Positions 6,551-37,144 of a stretch of DNA of 49,856 nucleotides are shown one piece after another; the stretch's first letter is position 1; every line of letters starts with the position of its first letter. This DNA is from a bacterium ADurb.Bin236 (GTDB lineage Bacteria > UBP15 > UBA6099): contig MWCD01000027.1 in NCBI GenBank assembly GCA_002069885.1, positions 1 through 49,856 of the forward strand. The letters are read 5' to 3'. The translations under genes and the position numbers were made by a program. A model generated the notes under the pieces. That model was given only the letters and a program-made list of their open reading frames with translations. It made no database searches and was not told where the DNA came from.

Positions 6551-7381
6551 TCATCGCGCCGAGCAGATGAGCCTTACAAGCTCTACGTTTAGAGCGTGGC
6601 CGCTGCGTTCGCCCTTGAATCTGCCTCTCAGCCGCCGTCCCGCAAGCGCCAAGTCCCCCGTCAGATCGAGCAGCTTATGCCGCGCGAATTCGTTGTCGAA
6701 CCTCAAAGGCGACGAATAAGAGTCCGGATAAACGACAACAGCGTTAAATTCAGAGCCGCCTAGGGCTAGCCCGGCGGCCCTCAACGCCTCGACCTCCTCT
6801 GAAAGCCCGAATGTGCGCGCCGGCGCAATCTCGCGCAGGTACTCATCAGCGCCACCCTCAAATCTCGCCGACTGTATCCCAATCATCGGATGCTCGTATT
6901 CCATTTCATATTCGACGACGAACCCGTCGAACGGCTCCGCCGTAACCCGGCTCCGCCCTTTCTCGATAGTCGTCTTCTTCGCAATCGTCAGATACTCTCT
7001 AGTCGCGTCAAGTTCCTTTAAACCCGCGCGGCGGATTCCGGCGGCGTAAGGCTCCGCCCCTCCGTCCAGAGCCGGAGGCTCATCGGCGGACATCTCGATT
7101 TCAGCGTTGTCGATCCCCATGCAATAAAGCGCGGACATCACATGTTCGATTGTGTGGAGTGATATGACGCCGTCGCTGACGACAGTGTTCCGCGCCGCCT
7201 GAACTGCGGATTCCGCTCCAGCCCTGACTCGCCGGCCACGGTGAGCAAAAACAACGCCTTCGCCGGGTCCCGACGGCAAAATCCTCAGCGAGCAGACGGC
7301 TCCCGTGTGCAACCCGACGCCGTCGAATTCTATCGGGTTCGCTATGGTCGTCTGCCTCTGAGATTGCATCGTCAAGTTCAA
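6551..7381 (-). CDS. lpxC: UDP-3-O-acyl-N-acetylglucosamine deacetylase LpxC
   Basis: 276 residues; catalyses the committed step of lipid A synthesis, zinc-dependent deacetylation of UDP-3-O-acyl-GlcNAc, in the cytosol. Known active-site residues are all visible: HTIEH at 76-80 (general base Glu79 and zinc ligand His80), RHKLLDLTGDL at 234-244 (zinc ligands His235 and Asp239) and GHALN at 261-265 (His262). The N-terminus IEFDGVGLHTG is the family start. It is somewhat shorter than the ~305-residue enterobacterial enzyme, mainly at the termini. Its ATG overlaps the lpxD stop (ATGA), showing translational coupling. It is the last gene of the bamA-lpx operon; fabZ and lpxA, which often follow, are not here. 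Confidence 0.96.
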   Translation of the reverse strand: MNLTMQSQRQTTIANPIEFDGVGLHTGAVCSLRILPSGPGEGVVFAHRGRRVRAGAESAVQAARNTVVSDGVISLHTIEHVMSALYCMGIDNAEIEMSADEPPALDGGAEPYAAGIRRAGLKELDATREYLTIAKKTTIEKGRSRVTAEPFDGFVVEYEMEYEHPMIGIQSARFEGGADEYLREIAPARTFGLSEEVEALRAAGLALGGSEFNAVVVYPDSYSSPLRFDNEFARHKLLDLTGDLALAGRRLRGRFKGERSGHALNVELVRLICSAR

Positions 7382-8406
7382 CCCTTTTCGTTTCCTTTTT
7401 CTATGCAGAGCAACAACTCTTCAACTTTTTTTATCAGTTCCGGAAGTTTCTCGGCGGCCGCGATCATTTTAATGTTTTCCCTGTGCGGGCGGGCCGGGAA
7501 CCCGGAATAAAATTTGCCGTCAGGCACATCAGAAATAACGCCCGCCTTCCCGCCGATGATAGCCCCTGAACCTATATTGACGTGGTCCGATACTCCGGCC
7601 TGACCGCCCATAATGGTGTCAGAGCCGACTGTGACGCTTCCGGACAATCCCGAAGATCCGCAGATAATGCAGCGGGCGCCAATTACCGTGTTGTGTCCGA
7701 TTTGCACGAGGTTGTCAATTTTCGCGCCGCGGCCCACTCTCGTCTCTCCGAGCGTCGCGCGGTCTACCGCCGAGTTCGCCCCGATTTCCACATCGTCCTC
7801 TATTACCACGCGGCCCGCCTGCGGAACTTTGTAATGGCTGCCGCTCTCGTCCCTCACATAGCCGAAACCGTCCGCCCCTATGACCACCCCGCTGTGCAGC
7901 GTCACGTTGTTTCCAAGCTCGCATCCATCCAGCACGACTACGTTCGGATGCAATAGACAGCCTTCCCCGACTCTCGCTCCGAGACCCAGAAAAACATTCG
8001 CTCTCAGAACCGAGCCCGCGCCGACATCTGCTCCCGACTCGACGCAGCAGTTCGGGCCGATCGCGCTTGTCGGATGCACATTCGCGCCGGGCGACACCAC
8101 CGCGGAAGGATGGATTCCCGGCTCGTGTTTCCTGTATGGGTTAAACAGCTCGACTGCCTTTGCGAAAGCCAGCTTGGAGTTCTTCGCCCTTATGACCGTC
8201 CGCCCCTCCAACTCCACGTCCGGAGGACATATCACGGCCGCTGGGTCTTTGCCGTTCAGCAATTCGACATCCCGCCGCCGCTCAAGCCACACCACGCTGC
8301 CTTCCGCGGCGACGTCCAGCGAGCTTACCCCGCATGCCTCTCGCCCGGCGTCCCCTTCGACGTCGCCCCCTATTATCTTCGCCACTTCACTTATTCTCAT
8401 TTTCAT
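7378..8406 (-). CDS. lpxD: UDP-3-O-acylglucosamine N-acyltransferase LpxD
   Basis: About 342 residues. An N-terminal uridine-binding domain is followed by a left-handed beta helix built of hexapeptide repeats (for example VTLHSGVVIGADGFGYV) and a C-terminal helix. QIGHN contains the catalytic histidine that activates the 3-hydroxyl of the acyl-ACP-charged reaction. LpxD adds the second acyl chain in lipid A synthesis, directly after LpxC. The ATG at 8406 was preferred over an upstream in-frame TTG at 8430 because GAGGGG lies ten bases before it and MKMRISEVAK is the expected start. The gene start overlaps the end of the upstream Skp-like gene by 20 bases, and its end overlaps lpxC. Confidence 0.96.
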   Translation of the reverse strand: MKMRISEVAKIIGGDVEGDAGREACGVSSLDVAAEGSVVWLERRRDVELLNGKDPAAVICPPDVELEGRTVIRAKNSKLAFAKAVELFNPYRKHEPGIHPSAVVSPGANVHPTSAIGPNCCVESGADVGAGSVLRANVFLGLGARVGEGCLLHPNVVVLDGCELGNNVTLHSGVVIGADGFGYVRDESGSHYKVPQAGRVVIEDDVEIGANSAVDRATLGETRVGRGAKIDNLVQIGHNTVIGARCIICGSSGLSGSVTVGSDTIMGGQAGVSDHVNIGSGAIIGGKAGVISDVPDGKFYSGFPARPHRENIKMIAAAEKLPELIKKVEELLLCIEKGNEKG

Positions 8407-9475
8407 CGCTTGTCTGCCCCTCGCTTTCAATCTTTCCCGCGCCCGTCAGAAAATCCCCCGTAACATCAACCGCGCCGCTAGGGAGCGGATGCCGCGAAAT
8501 GACGATGACGGACAGCCCGCGTTTATCCGCCACCGCAGGAGCGCGGCGCATCATGCCGCGTATAAATTCCTTTCTCAAATCCTTTTCCAGAGAATCGAAC
8601 GCGGAGACTGAAGGCGGCGCGGGACTAGCTTCTGCCGACCGCGCTTTAGCCGCCATCTTTTTCCTTTCCGCTGCCGACGACCCCGCTCGGGACGACAGAT
8701 CGTTTTTGTGCGCGGCCGAGACCATCGACAACATTATCTCAGACTCTTCGAGCATCCGGGCGGCGCGCTCCTTCAGTTCCGATTCCCGGCGACGCGAGCC
8801 GCTGAGGAACTCCTCCCTTTCTGCTCCCGCGACCCTGTCATATTCCCGTTGAAGCGCCACGATCCTCGATCTCTCGTATTCATCTATTGCAGCGCGCAAC
8901 GCCTCCGCTTCCGACTCCATCCTCGCTAGTCGGTCTTCAGAGAAAACATATGGATCTCGCGTGAGCGCCTTCAACTTAAGCCTGAGCGCGAAAAGCTCAA
9001 ACTTCTCTTTCGCCATCGGGTCTTCCGGGTCCGGCCTGTTGAGTTGCCTGTGAAACGATTCGAGCCGCCTCGCGGTCGCTTCATGCGCGCGCGCGTCTTC
9101 GGTCGAATAAACTTCCCTATATGAGATATAATCCCTGCGCAGCGCGTCTAGCGCGCTTGCGGACATCAGGCTGCCGATGTTACGGCCTCTAGCCGCGAAA
9201 CCTTCTTCGAGACTTCGGATTTCAGAGCCGAGAACGCGGGATGGGAAAGACGCGCCGAAAGCGGTTCCGGCTGCGTCGCGCCGACGGTCGCCTTCCATCT
9301 CGAAAGACATCCTGACAGCTTTCAACAATTGATATTCGGGAGTTGACTCAAAAAGGAGTTGCGCGTCCGCGCAACCTATCAAGATATCCTGCCGGGCAGG
9401 CTCGCGGAGAGCAAGGTAGAGCGCCGCCGCAACGCACAGCATGGCGGCCGTCAGCCATATCAACCGCCTCTTCAT
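8387..9475 (-). CDS. Second Skp/OmpH-like coiled-coil protein, membrane-anchored
   Basis: 362 residues of no firmly recognised family. Residues 6-23 are a single hydrophobic segment, an uncleaved anchor or a signal peptide. The middle (about 60-290) is long, charged and heptad-like, rich in Arg, Glu and Ala, so mostly coiled coil. The very end (GLSVIVISRHPLPSGAVDVTGDFL) resembles the C-terminal strand of Skp/OmpH, where a hydrophobic strand is followed by G-(x)-D-V/L-T-D-E/D-hydrophobic. It starts seven bases after the stop of the real skp and ends inside lpxD. I infer a duplicated, roughly twice-enlarged Skp-type periplasmic chaperone; a structural scaffold is the alternative. Confidence 0.6.
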   Translation of the reverse strand: MKRRLIWLTAAMLCVAAALYLALREPARQDILIGCADAQLLFESTPEYQLLKAVRMSFEMEGDRRRDAAGTAFGASFPSRVLGSEIRSLEEGFAARGRNIGSLMSASALDALRRDYISYREVYSTEDARAHEATARRLESFHRQLNRPDPEDPMAKEKFELFALRLKLKALTRDPYVFSEDRLARMESEAEALRAAIDEYERSRIVALQREYDRVAGAEREEFLSGSRRRESELKERAARMLEESEIMLSMVSAAHKNDLSSRAGSSAAERKKMAAKARSAEASPAPPSVSAFDSLEKDLRKEFIRGMMRRAPAVADKRGLSVIVISRHPLPSGAVDVTGDFLTGAGKIESEGQTSDENENK

Positions 9476-11363: not shown

Positions 11364-13133
11364 TTAGAACATGTGTCCGAATCCGAAATGGAGTTTGGAA
11401 TCTTTATCCTCGACCGTTACGGCGTAGTCGAGCCTCACCGGGCCGATTCCGAAAGCAGGTATCTTCAATCTCAGCCCCACGCCGTATGAGCGATACATGT
11501 CTTTGCCGGGCAGGAACTTCATGTCCGAAGCGCTCATCCAAGCGTTGCCTGCGTCGGCGAACAGGGCCGCGCTCAGGTTTCCGGAGAGGCTTACCCTGTA
11601 TTCAAGGTTGTAGAGCACCAGTTTCGTCCCGCCGAACTGGTATTCGTCATAGCCGCGCAGGGTGTTGACGCCGCCAAGGTCGAAATAGTCGAATCTGGGA
11701 ATGTCTCCCTGTCCAAGCCCGATCATAATCCTGCCGCAAATCGTGTGGTTCTTCCTAATCGGATAGTACCGCCTGCCCTCAAGCGTCAGCTTTTCATAGT
11801 CGTAGTCCCCGCCGAGCAACCCGCCGTTGAGTTCAAGCGACGCGCTGTCATACCGGCCTGTCGTGGGATTGAAAATATAATCGCGGGTGTCCGTCCTTAT
11901 CGTCCCGGTCACGCTGCGCGACGAACCGTCCAGATATGAATACAACTCCTCAGGCGTGACGGCCACATTCTCGATTTTATAGCCCACGAACACTCGCGTA
12001 TAGTTCGATATCGGGCGCCCGAAGGTCATGTTGAAACCTCTGCGGATTTCCTCGTAATCCTCGGTGATAAGCCCTGACAGGCCATACCGGAGATTTTCCC
12101 TGTATGTGCTGTAAACATTCACTTCGCCGCTGGTCTGTTTCTTGTCCAGCCACGGCTCGAAATAACCTAGTTCGAAGTTGTCCCTCTTGCCGCCGAACTC
12201 CGTCTTAGCGTCCACCCGGCGCGCCTTCCCTTTCAGGTTCCTCTCCGAATACGTCAGGAATCCTGTAAGGCCTGTGTTCGAGCTATACCCCGCGCCGAAA
12301 CCCGCCGAGCCTGTTTTGCCCTCCTCGACCTCTACCACAAGGATTATATGACCGGGCTTGTCGCCGGGATCCACCCGCGTGTGGACATCGTCGAAAAATC
12401 CCAAATTGTAAATCTTCTGGAGATCGCGGCCAAGATTGTTCTTGTTATAGATGTCTCCGGGTTTAATTTTCATCTCGCGAGTTATCACGTAATCCTTCGT
12501 TTTGCCGGTGTCGGAAACCGAAGGCTCTTCCGTATTCAGTTCATCGCTTGCGACAACCACATACGCAACTTTAATCGCTTGAATCACGCCTTCCGAGATG
12601 ACGATGTTCAGATTTTTGGCGGCGTCTATCCTTGCGTCTATCACTCTGGCGGCAATGTACCCGTCGCCGATGTATTTGTTTTCAATCGCTTCGACATCCG
12701 TCCTGAGGTTATTGCTGTTGAGAATGGTGTTGCGTTTTGCGCGCATCAGTTCGCCGAGTTGCGCTTCGGTGTAAACGCTCGCGCCCTCGAATATGACCGA
12801 GTTTATTACAGGATTCTCAGTCACCCTGAAAGTGACCCGCGCGCCGCCCTGAAATTCAGCCAAACTGGCCTTTACGTCTTCTGAAAAGTAGCCGAGGTCG
12901 AATATTCTCTGGAGGTCGTCCTGAAGGGTTTCTGTGGACAGCTTTGAGCCTACCGCCGACTTGACTACCGCGAGGATTTCGCCTTCGTCGACTTCGAACG
13001 CTCCCGCAACTTCGATTTTCGTGATAATGACATCCGTTTCCACTGTTGCGTCCTGCGCGAGCGCGGGAGTCCAAAGAGCCGCGAGAAGCGCTATCATCGC
13101 CGCCGCCAATTTTTTATTGCGCACCTTCATCAT
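11364..13133 (-). CDS. bamA: Outer membrane protein assembly factor BamA
   Basis: 589 residues with a signal peptide (cleavage likely after ALA). The N-terminal ~270 residues form about three POTRA domains (repeated I-x-V-x-G and L-G-Y/F-F-x-D-V patterns), fewer than the five of proteobacterial BamA. The C-terminal barrel contains LRGYDEYQ, the conserved loop-6 R-G-F/Y motif, and ends in a terminal phenylalanine (FGHMF). BamA inserts beta-barrel proteins into the outer membrane. Two consecutive ATGs (13133 and 13130) follow GGAGG; the second has the better spacing of six. A -10-like TATAAT lies at 13180-13185 without a convincing -35. It is the first gene of the operon running to lpxC. Confidence 0.95.
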   Translation of the reverse strand: MMKVRNKKLAAAMIALLAALWTPALAQDATVETDVIITKIEVAGAFEVDEGEILAVVKSAVGSKLSTETLQDDLQRIFDLGYFSEDVKASLAEFQGGARVTFRVTENPVINSVIFEGASVYTEAQLGELMRAKRNTILNSNNLRTDVEAIENKYIGDGYIAARVIDARIDAAKNLNIVISEGVIQAIKVAYVVVASDELNTEEPSVSDTGKTKDYVITREMKIKPGDIYNKNNLGRDLQKIYNLGFFDDVHTRVDPGDKPGHIILVVEVEEGKTGSAGFGAGYSSNTGLTGFLTYSERNLKGKARRVDAKTEFGGKRDNFELGYFEPWLDKKQTSGEVNVYSTYRENLRYGLSGLITEDYEEIRRGFNMTFGRPISNYTRVFVGYKIENVAVTPEELYSYLDGSSRSVTGTIRTDTRDYIFNPTTGRYDSASLELNGGLLGGDYDYEKLTLEGRRYYPIRKNHTICGRIMIGLGQGDIPRFDYFDLGGVNTLRGYDEYQFGGTKLVLYNLEYRVSLSGNLSAALFADAGNAWMSASDMKFLPGKDMYRSYGVGLRLKIPAFGIGPVRLDYAVTVEDKDSKLHFGFGHMF

Positions 13134-33962: not shown

Positions 33963-34388
33963 ATGAACAATAACGCCGAGAAACACGAAAAAAGAAAAAC
34001 CGCGATGACTGCGGCTCTTGCCTTCGCCGGCGCGGCCGCCATCTTCATTTTCTTCCGCTTCATCTTTCCATCGCTCAGCGGGATTCCCGCGTGCGCTTTC
34101 CACTCAATGACAGGCTTGCACTGTCCGGGATGCGGCGGACTCCGCGCGATGCATGCTCTGGCAAACGGCAGGTTCGCCGAAGCCGCCGGACACAACGCTT
34201 TGTTCGTCCTCATTTTTCTCCCCCTCGGAGCCTTCGCCGCCACGCTGTGGTTCAACAGACGAATCACAGGCCGGGCTGGATTGCCTCCCTTCCCCTCCGC
34301 CGCCGCATGGTTTCTGGTCGCGCTCGCCGTCATCTTTGCAATACTCCGCAACCTGCCCTTTTACCCTTTCACAATCCTCGCCCCTTAA
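33963..34388 (+). CDS. DUF2752 small membrane protein
   Basis: 141 residues with three or four hydrophobic helices. Between the first and second lies HSMTGLHCPGCGGLRAMHAL, the defining C-P-x-C-G-x-x-R motif of DUF2752. The family has no proven function; two cysteines at the membrane surface suggest metal or disulfide chemistry. It starts 25 bases after the mutase stop and begins a plus-strand run that continues to 37144, so it is either the tail of the mutase operon or the head of the next unit. Confidence 0.85.
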   Translation: MNNNAEKHEKRKTAMTAALAFAGAAAIFIFFRFIFPSLSGIPACAFHSMTGLHCPGCGGLRAMHALANGRFAEAAGHNALFVLIFLPLGAFAATLWFNRRITGRAGLPPFPSAAAWFLVALAVIFAILRNLPFYPFTILAP

Positions 34389-34486
34389 CGCCGTTCCTTT
34401 TCACGCAAAGGCAAAAAAACGGCTTGTTTTTGGAAACTATTACAAAAGGGCGCTTGCGCGCGGCTTCGCTTTGGGATGGCGGCATT

Positions 34487-35014
34487 ATGATTAAATACAG
34501 ATACAACAGGGTGGTTCACGCGCCCCGTGACTTCGTTTTCATAACTATGCGGGACCATCAGACGGAACTTAACGAGATGCTGCCCAACGTGTCCACGTGC
34601 TCCATCGTCGAAGACCGCCCTTGCGAGGGCGCCCGCAGAATCGTCGCCGAAGTCACCGGCAACGCAGAAATTCCTTTCTTCCTTAAACCCTTCATCAACA
34701 TCAGGCAGTTGGTCTGGCACAGCATACAGATATGGGACGACGATGAGTGGTCTTGCGATTACCGCATCGAAACCGCCTACTACAGAGAGCACGTCGAGGT
34801 GCGGGGCAAATGGTGGTTCAAAGAGCGCACCTTTGACAAAACCAACATTTACATCGACAGCATGATAGGCATCGACGCGAAAGGAATACCGGGAGTGCCC
34901 GTCCAGCTCGCAAGCGGAATTTCCACTTTCGCCGAACAGATTCTACACAAGATGACTCTGCCGAACCTCAACCGGATCTGCGCGATAGTCGAGGAGATGA
35001 ACGGATGCCATTGA
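34487..35014 (+). CDS. SRPBCC (START-like) family protein
   Basis: 175 residues from ATG 34487 with GGGATGG seven bases upstream. MIKYRYNRVVHAPRDFVFITMRDH followed by alternating strands and a long C-terminal helix (ASGISTFAEQILHKMTLPNLNRICAIVEEM) is the shape of the SRPBCC lipid/polyketide-binding fold (Bet v1-like). KWWFKERTFDKTNIYIDSM supplies the central strands. It should bind a hydrophobic ligand in a deep cavity; no ligand or enzyme function can be read. It is in the DUF2752-to-ExbD plus-strand run. Confidence 0.7.
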   Translation: MIKYRYNRVVHAPRDFVFITMRDHQTELNEMLPNVSTCSIVEDRPCEGARRIVAEVTGNAEIPFFLKPFINIRQLVWHSIQIWDDDEWSCDYRIETAYYREHVEVRGKWWFKERTFDKTNIYIDSMIGIDAKGIPGVPVQLASGISTFAEQILHKMTLPNLNRICAIVEEMNGCH

Positions 35015-35048
35015 GAAAACGCGCCACGCGCGCTTAAGGCGGAAATCT

Positions 35049-35288
35049 GTGAAACACGACCAGAAAAACGAGCCGGTTGTCATTTACAGGACATCCGACT
35101 ATTTCGACGCCAATATTATTAAGGGAGTGTTGGAAACAAACGGAATACAAAGTTTTCTTTCAGGAACGCCGATGTCGCATTGCTTGGACGTCGCAAGACA
35201 TTTTGGCGCGGTTGACATTAGAATAAATGTTCGGGAGCAGGACGCCGAAACGGCGTTAAAAATCATTAATGAGTCCCAAGCGCCTTAA
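35049..35288 (+). CDS. DUF2007 protein, first of a tandem pair
   Basis: 79 residues, starting at a GTG preceded by GGCGGA. EPVVIYRTSDYFDANIIKGVLETNGIQSF... VDIRINVREQDAETALKIINE is the small two-helix, beta-sheet DUF2007 (putative signal-transducing, PII-like) domain. These proteins are thought to fold like a ferredoxin/PII domain, but no function is proved. The next gene is a paralogue 29 bases downstream. Confidence 0.8.
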   Translation: MKHDQKNEPVVIYRTSDYFDANIIKGVLETNGIQSFLSGTPMSHCLDVARHFGAVDIRINVREQDAETALKIINESQAP

Positions 35289-35317
35289 ACCGTTCTTACA
35301 GAGAAGAAACGACGCTT

Positions 35318-35572
35318 ATGAATCAGGATACAAAAAAAATGGAACTGGTGACGATTTACCGCGCCGCGAGTTACAATGAAGCTGAGATTATCAGGGGGCT
35401 TCTGGAAGCCAACGGGATAAAAAGCGTCACTTCAGGAAACGCCGCGCCGTCAGTCCACATCTTCACTATCGACGGCATGGGCGATGTGGGCGTGATGGTG
35501 GCTGCTAAAGACGCGCAAGCCGCTTCGGAACTGATTGCTAGCTCGGAAAACGAATCGCCGGACCCGGAATGA
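35318..35572 (+). CDS. DUF2007 protein, second of a tandem pair
   Basis: 84 residues. ELVTIYRAASYNEAEIIRGLLEANGIKSV... VGVMVAAKDAQAASELIASSE repeats the plan of the preceding gene (IYR, E/N-II-(R/K)G-(L/V)LE-(A/T)NGI, D-A-x-x-A), showing a local duplication that has diverged. Its ribosome binding site is weak. The stop TGA overlaps the ATG (ATGA) of a possible longer start of the next gene, so the two are coupled. Confidence 0.8.
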   Translation: MNQDTKKMELVTIYRAASYNEAEIIRGLLEANGIKSVTSGNAAPSVHIFTIDGMGDVGVMVAAKDAQAASELIASSENESPDPE

Positions 35573-35607: not shown

Positions 35608-36627
35608 TTGAAGAAAATCGCGACAGCGGCCATTGCCGCCGCAATATTTTTCGCCGCATCCGCCGCCCTCGCGGTGGATATTCTGGACGCCGAAATAACT
35701 ATCAGAGATGGCTACGCTATTATCATCGACGGCGCCACAGTCCAGCCCGACGTTCCCCCCGTCGAAAAAGGCGGCATGATATTCATCCCCATAAGGTTCG
35801 CCGCCGAGGCCCTCCGCGCGGACGTCACTTGGCACAAGGAAAACAAAATAATCGATCTACGATTCCCCGGCAACAGGCAAATGACCATGAAAATCGGCGA
35901 CACGACGGTGGACATGGGCGACACGGAAAAAATCCTTCCCGCCGCCCCCTTCATCTTCGAGTCACGCGCCATGATCCCCCTGCGGCCGGTAGCAGAACAG
36001 GGTTGGTTCAAAGTCAAGGAACAGCAGGACGCCTCCATCCTAGTGACCGACCCCGACATTTACGGCTATCAGGTTCCGCCGGAGGAAAGCGTCGTCCCCG
36101 GAGAAAAATCTCATTCCGGCTCTTTGGACGCTATTAGGGAAAAAGCGCGCAAAGACGAAACCACAAAAAAACTAAAAATCCCCGTTCTGACCGCATGGGC
36201 AGCGCTTCTGGCCCTATGGGCATGGCTGTTCGCTTTTCGCTTGTTCGGCAAGAAGGAATCTGCCAAAGACTTGGTGATAATCGGCCTTTGCCTCACCGCC
36301 GGGATGGTTTTCGTCCTTTATGGCGGCATACTTATGAGCACGTACTGGGCGGGAATAGTGATACTTGTAATGAGCGCCATCGGGCTTGTCTCGAACGAGA
36401 GTTATCAGGACAAACTTGTTACGATGGCGTCCACCGCCCAAGGCGCCGGGCTGATTTGCACGCTCTTCGGACTTGGCCTTCTCATCGGCCCAGCTATCGC
36501 TCAACGCGACATCGAAGCTATCGGCTTCGGCATCTACGTCAAGATTGAGCCGACCATCACAGGTCTCGCTCTCTCAATAATTCTGAATATGTTATTCGGC
36601 TATGAAGCAAGAAGAAAACGGATCTAA
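35608..36627 (+). CDS. Fusion: exported copper-amine-oxidase-N-like domain + ExbB/TolQ-like channel
   Basis: 339 residues from a TTG at 35608, chosen because GGAGG (35593-35597) is ten bases upstream and KKIATAAIAAAIFFAASAALA then forms a clean signal peptide; an ATG at 35569 would add 13 residues. Part 1 (~25-145) is a Cu_amine_oxidN1-type beta domain: FIPIRFAAEALRADVTWHKENKII and AAPFIFESRAMIPLRPVAEQGWFKV are its paired repeats. Part 2 has about five hydrophobic helices. The last two match the ExbB/TolQ pore: ASTAQGAGLICTLFGLG against the S/A-T-A-P-x-x-G-L-x-G-T pattern, and EPTITGLALSIILNMLFGYEA against the T-x-x-G-L-x-x-A/S-I pattern. The next gene is ExbD-like, confirming the reading. 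I infer a proton-driven motor with its own extracytoplasmic sensing or anchoring domain. Confidence 0.72.
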   Translation: MKKIATAAIAAAIFFAASAALAVDILDAEITIRDGYAIIIDGATVQPDVPPVEKGGMIFIPIRFAAEALRADVTWHKENKIIDLRFPGNRQMTMKIGDTTVDMGDTEKILPAAPFIFESRAMIPLRPVAEQGWFKVKEQQDASILVTDPDIYGYQVPPEESVVPGEKSHSGSLDAIREKARKDETTKKLKIPVLTAWAALLALWAWLFAFRLFGKKESAKDLVIIGLCLTAGMVFVLYGGILMSTYWAGIVILVMSAIGLVSNESYQDKLVTMASTAQGAGLICTLFGLGLLIGPAIAQRDIEAIGFGIYVKIEPTITGLALSIILNMLFGYEARRKRI

Positions 36628-37144
36628 TAAGCGGGTATCATTCCTGATGCCGTACATCGACTTCTGTTTCATGCTGATTATTATTTTCGCCGGCATGCTC
36701 TCCATCGCATACTTCGAGCCTCTCGGCCGCACCGACATTCAGACCCGCCAAGCGACTACCATCACGAACAGAGAAGGACAGTTCGACACCAAACCGCTCG
36801 GAGTCCAGTGGGAAAGCCTAGCGCCCGGAGACCTCGACGATAGCGAACAGATACGCCCCATGCGCGGCGGAGAAACAACTCCCCCGGCGACCACGGCGGC
36901 AGTCAGGCCTCTGCGCGACCTATCGAAACCCTCCGGCGCAGACCCCGAAGAACTCGAAAAACTCAAAGAACAACTGCGCCTCAAAGAAGAAGAACTAAAG
37001 AAAATGTCCGAAACACAACATGCCGCCGCCGATGGCAAAGAGCCGGACGGAACAACCGCCTCCCCCGCGCCGCCCTCCACTCCCGACGAACCCGGCTCCG
37101 GCAACCACCACTACATCGACCTGCGCAAAAAAAATAATCACTGA
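36602..37144 (+). CDS. ExbD/TolR-like single-helix protein with coiled coil, no usual periplasmic domain
   Basis: 180 residues; its start overlaps the ExbB-like gene by 26 bases. The N-terminus KRVSFLMPYIDFCFMLIIIFAGML has the ExbD/TolR helix layout I/V-x-x-x-P-L/Y-I-D-V/F-x-x-x-L-L-I-x-F; Asp20 is at the place of the proton-carrying Asp25 of E. coli ExbD. After the helix there is a Thr/Pro-rich linker, a short coiled coil (DPEELEKLKEQLRLKEEEL) and a disordered tail rich in Pro. The compact folded domain of true ExbD is absent. It should pair with the upstream channel; what it pulls on is unknown. Confidence 0.65.
   Translation: MKQEENGSNKRVSFLMPYIDFCFMLIIIFAGMLSIAYFEPLGRTDIQTRQATTITNREGQFDTKPLGVQWESLAPGDLDDSEQIRPMRGGETTPPATTAAVRPLRDLSKPSGADPEELEKLKEQLRLKEEELKKMSETQHAAADGKEPDGTTASPAPPSTPDEPGSGNHHYIDLRKKNNH

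Follow-up and report, generated by a model that had tools for sequence, protein, structure and literature searches.

What kind of machinery is encoded by two overlapping genes on the forward strand at 35608-37144 of the window, i.e., of the whole stretch of 49,856 nucleotides that was analyzed? The initial annotation had proposed a motor of the ExbB/ExbD type with a fused, secreted sensor domain. The open frames confirmed the coordinates and the overlap, which comprises 26 nt. The two genes are called A and B in the following.

Architecture of genes A and B

35608..36627, + strand: gene A, TTG start, 339 aa, with a signal peptide, a Cu_amine_oxidN1 (CuAO) domain, an anchor TM and a four-helix MotA/ExbB-like core
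35608..35673, + strand: signal peptide of A, about residues 1-22 (hydropathy, sequence)
35725..36027, + strand: Cu_amine_oxidN1 domain of A, residues 40-140 (PF07833, E 2.3e-20)
36178..36234, + strand: TM0 of A, anchor helix (hydropathy; its counterpart is the C-terminal TM of a separate CuAO protein in a second phylum)
36274..36393, + strand: TM1 and TM2 of A, motor-like core (hydropathy)
36415..36501, + strand: TM3 of A, LVTMASTAQGAGLICTLFGLGLLIGPAIA, with the invariant Thr285 (aligned with ExbB TM2)
36529..36600, + strand: TM4 of A, GIYVKIEPTITGLALSIILNMLFG, with the invariant Thr316, Lys312 and Glu314 (aligned with ExbB TM3)
36602..37144, + strand: gene B, ATG start, 180 aa, with an ExbD/TolR-like helix, a Pro-rich linker, a coiled coil and a conserved C-terminal tail
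36650..36715, + strand: ExbD/TolR-type TM of B with Asp20, codon 36659-36661 (profile comparison, HMM ranking, hydropathy)
36941..37018, + strand: predicted coiled coil of B (heptads by eye; coiled-coil Pfam matches of the second-phylum B)
37103..37129, + strand: C-terminal tail of B, NHHYIDLRK (counterparts DHFYLDLRE in an order relative and SSEYIDIRK in the second phylum)

The fusion of a signal peptide and a Cu_amine_oxidN1 domain to membrane helices in one chain was borne out. In a Pfam search A passed the cut-off of PF07833 with 73 bits versus 24.2, and a hydropathy analysis yielded five hydrophobic helices besides the signal peptide. Hydropathy and the alignment of the core showed TM2 and TM3 to be about 8 residues apart, and the large cytoplasmic domain of ExbB and MotA was absent between the A helices. 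Structure predictions of the whole A protein and of its core were poor, with mean pLDDT values of 47.5 and 53.8, respectively.

Gene B encodes a single N-terminal TM with a P-x-I-D motif, and Asp20 lies within PYIDFCFMLIIIF. When 542 ORFs were ranked with an HMM built from seven canonical ExbD proteins only, all eight B-family proteins were placed right behind the canonical ones, with E-values from 9e-4 to 0.03, and the next unrelated ORF followed at 0.54. A profile-profile comparison of B with ExbD (hhalign) gave 1.1e-6. The annotated TolR/ExbD helix with Asp20 was thus recovered, and these sequence comparisons firmly support an ExbD-type identity of B. In the Pfam search the window B did not match PF02472, and a second-phylum B reached 18.2 bits, below the cut-off of 25.4. 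The globular periplasmic domain of ExbD was not detected in the sequence of the window B; the profile match ended after the TM and was followed by the linker, the coiled coil and the tail, in agreement with the annotated lack of the usual periplasmic fold. The initial annotation had also noted that no TonB, TolA or OmpA-like domain is encoded nearby. Indeed, inspection by eye of the ORFs neighboring the pair revealed neither TonB nor TolA, and Pfam gave no match to an OmpA-like peptidoglycan-binding domain in B.

The relation of A to ExbB-type ring proteins

The annotated similarity of the A helices to the ExbB/TolQ pore patterns was upheld in part. The last two helices matched MotA, TolQ and ExbB in register, and an alignment revealed that canonical ExbB shares Thr285, Thr316 and eight other positions, Gly and Leu among them, with the A core. 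Among the Pfam families PF01618 (MotA_ExbB) ranked best with the first member of the core, and all five core members matched it, the best one with 7.7e-4 and the window core with 0.012, but with 13.3-19 bits they stayed below the curated cut-off of 22.9. With an HMM of canonical ExbB, A did not rise above noise (E of 6 or more), and the profile-profile comparison of A with ExbB (hhalign) gave only 0.027. With the A profile, MFS transporters outscored canonical ExbB, which was due to the Gly-rich A helix. Sequence searches against the PDB yielded nothing significant. The low-confidence model of the A core was compared with 350,542 PDB chains, and the top two were MotA (6ykm_A) and TolQ (9ddn_C), with E-values of 0.4-0.6; because of the poor model confidence this fold match is weak and without significance.

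The weak ExbB scores (hhalign, canonical ExbB HMM) and the MFS matches to the Gly-rich helix would also fit a small transporter-like membrane protein that does not belong to ExbB and that gained its ExbD-like partner by convergence. Such an origin of A is improbable in view of the PF01618 matches of all members with both threonines in register, and of the gene for an ExbD-type helix that constantly adjoins the A core in two phyla. MotA and TolQ also ranked first in the model search, albeit not significantly. An ExbB-type identity of A is therefore supported by the sequence comparisons, more weakly than the ExbD-type identity of B. We classify A/B as a 5:2 motor variant that falls outside strict PF01618 and PF02472 membership on the points tested.

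The domain-wide profile search also returned transporters, such as those of the MFS type (G132, G161, G181, G265, G362), which were inspected and set aside. Matches in G081, G352, G270 and G376 were dropped because of stop codons or short frames, and a match in G079 was a canonical ExbB/ExbD pair.

Conservation in two phyla and exported partners

The A/B pair was present in six of the seven genomes examined of the window's phylum, with the same genus, family and order represented. It was missing from G006, a genome that is only 78% complete. The pair is under purifying selection: within the genus A had dN/dS values of 0.03-0.07 and B of 0.19-0.24, with no amino-acid change in the B helix. The low dN/dS values, together with conservation across the order and into a second phylum, showed that the pair is not due to chance. 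A search of IMG/VR yielded no relatives. The G004 contig has a frame change, either real or an assembly error, that breaks the reading frame of A (L011:4944-5962), and B is open there. Upstream of A, on the same strand at 34091-35572, the window contains genes for a DUF2007 protein and for an unassigned protein resembling by eye the product of the G004 gene upstream of A (L011:3980-4516).

A profile of the N-terminal part of B gave the first matches in a second phylum, in three genomes at 2e-15, and the module was found in all four genomes examined. The co-conservation of A and B, which the initial annotation had named as a check, was thus found in both phyla. In the second phylum A is represented by two genes, one for a CuAO protein with a single helix at its C-terminus and one for a four-helix ExbB-like protein. 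The window A is 38% identical to the stand-alone CuAO-TM protein over 108 aa, and the ExbB-like protein, which has 133 aa (141 in one genome), is 43-44% identical to the A core. The split coincides with the boundary between TM0 and TM1, and therefore the same membrane topology is expected for the fused and the split forms. The C-terminal motif of B is kept, with YIDIRK versus YIDLRK in the window. The label "sensor" for the exported domain was not supported, as no test indicated sensing, and the separate CuAO protein of the second phylum, with its single TM, fits an anchor or a collar equally well.

The second-phylum genes are arranged on one strand in the order CuAO-TM, ExbB-like, ExbD-like, T215, T178 and barrel. 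The last three encode exported proteins, and the final one, of 623 aa, is a probable outer-membrane barrel. Its barrel nature was read by eye from the sequence, and a Pfam search gave no match for it. Homologues of all three were found in the window's phylum, for the barrel with E-values of about 1e-18 to 1e-23 (1e-18 to 5e-21 in the genus), for T178 with 8e-11 and for T215 with 9e-5 (both hhalign). In the window's genome and its relatives they lie in the second-phylum order at one locus, which is apart from A/B. This locus also contains genes for an SLH-domain porin-like protein, an OstA/LptC-like protein and an ELM1-family protein. The OstA/LptC-like gene (PF06835, 1.2e-4; 489 aa; L097:4162-5631) possibly encodes a divergent LptD. 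At the partner locus of G005 a 354-aa ILEI-domain protein (1e-9; L102:6219-7283) is encoded, the N-terminal part of which resembles T178.

The separate location in the window's phylum leads to the alternative that A/B is an ExbB/ExbD-like motor to which T215, T178 and the barrel are unrelated, and that it serves peptidoglycan anchoring or remodeling through the CuAO domain alone. The neighbors of A/B indeed vary: G005 has an FlgF/FlgG-type gene next to the pair, and the window and G004 have a different gene upstream. This alternative is unlikely, however, because strong matches to B and the barrel occurred in exactly the same 9 of 386 genomes surveyed, a statistic not to be over-read, as the nine genomes represent only two independent lineages. 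The barrel and A/B were also both missing from the incomplete genome G006, and the order T215-T178-barrel is common to two phyla. Taken together, T215, T178 and the barrel are well supported as a partner set of A/B. This link to three exported partners, including a probable outer-membrane barrel, is new and goes beyond the initial annotation.

A candidate trans-envelope machine

The window contains, on the reverse strand, genes for LpxC (3.3e-83) followed by an LpxD-like protein at 6551-8430, i.e., for LPS synthesis in a little-studied phylum, for BamA at 11364-13133 (Omp85 1.9e-44, POTRA repeats) and for two flagellar rod proteins of the FlgF/FlgG type at 728-2593. The host is therefore probably a diderm that has LPS and flagella. 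With a possible link to LPS transport in mind, LPS-export families were searched for as well. PF04453 (LptD) was found in none of nine genomes and LptF/G in all nine, but a control found LptD in only 2 of 14 genomes, and G006 also lacked it, so that with this narrow model the non-detection may mean divergence only. At a separate locus (C12) the same genome has canonical ExbB/ExbD-family genes together with a gene that is TolA-like by eye, and relatives have ordinary MotA/MotB pairs. A/B is therefore an additional motor and not a local version of those. Genome G001 also encodes a 624-aa MotA/ExbB-family protein with a long tail (L023:1105-2979), which we take to be reminiscent of ZorA.

The four core helices of A, as in MotA, the FlgF/FlgG gene adjoining the pair in G005 and the two rod genes of the window raised the question of whether A/B might be a flagellar stator or an accessory related to MotA/MotB. 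This is very improbable given the ordinary MotA/MotB pairs of the relatives and the second-phylum operon, which is devoid of flagellar genes; moreover, the A core has no cytoplasmic torque domain and B no OmpA-like wall-binding domain.

The assignment of A/B to a motor class is likely, and the two proteins would make up a divergent 5:2 motor of the ExbB/MotA:ExbD/MotB type, powered by protons (or ions). We infer that five A cores may form a ring around a dimer of B helices, with an ion path between Asp20 of B and the threonines of TM3 and TM4 of A. With one CuAO-N1 domain per A chain, the ring would bear a five-fold periplasmic collar, which may fix it against the wall or attract partners. As a shaft, B would extend its coiled coil into the periplasm, and the YIDLRK tip of B may contact T215, T178 and, via them, the outer-membrane barrel. 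As the partner cluster adjoins the OstA/LptC-like gene and the SLH porin, it is tempting to guess that an outer-membrane assembly or export step is the likeliest cargo. That A/B represents a subfamily of 5:2-type PMF motors with an exported collar, which drives a machine that spans the envelope and differs from Ton, Tol, Mot and Gld, has in our estimate a probability of about two in three. A wider proposal we regard as evenly poised: A/B would be the motor of an undescribed ion-powered trans-envelope machine of six components (CuAO collar, ExbB-like ring, ExbD-like shaft, T215, T178 and outer-membrane barrel), which would handle a cargo of its own in the outer membrane and stand apart from the Ton, Tol, Mot, Gld and Agl systems.

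With ExbB-ExbD and TolQ-TolR the pair has in common the ExbD-type TM with its Asp, the ExbB TM2/TM3 motif with two threonines, the adjacent genes and the diderm host. In contrast to ExbB/TolQ, A has a CuAO-N1 domain and a four-helix core almost without a cytoplasmic loop, and its last helix differs from that of ExbB by the invariant Lys312 and Glu314. B has a coiled coil and the YIDLRK tail where ExbD/TolR have the ExbD domain. MotA-MotB is alike in the four core helices of the ring protein and the ion-carrying Asp in the partner helix, and differs in the torque-generating and wall-binding domains named above. GldL-GldM of type IX secretion and gliding also consists of a ring protein and a partner, the periplasmic part of which has been proposed to be a shaft (PMC9389320), as is proposed here for A/B. 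However, its partner set is another one, the periplasmic part of B is a short coiled coil, and no sequence relation to A/B surfaced in the searches, none of which was aimed at GldL-GldM directly.

The annotated statement that ExbB/TolQ proteins normally have no large exported domain was too strong. Like A, the ExbB proteins of Serratia and of many Alphaproteobacteria have a signal peptide and a periplasmic extension (PMC9008036), and ExbB-family A subunits with an exported N-terminal DUF3450 or DUF2341 appendage on an ExbB-type core are known (PMC12505986). The exported domain of A is therefore not new in kind. Compared with the DUF3450/DUF2341 subunits, the A core is shorter and the partners are different, and a Cu_amine_oxidN1 appendage is not mentioned in PMC12505986. 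A literature search, which left subscription papers mostly aside, brought up neither the CuAO appendage nor the stripped core, the B tail or the partner set.

Few machines are known to carry energy from the inner membrane to the outer membrane. To these, A/B contributes a ring protein that has an exported collar but hardly any cytoplasmic domain, and the pair may represent the 5:2 motor in a minimal form. With T215, T178 and the barrel, concrete partners can be named in two phyla, one of which has complete single-contig genomes, and the identity of the outer-membrane process that receives the energy in these lineages becomes testable.
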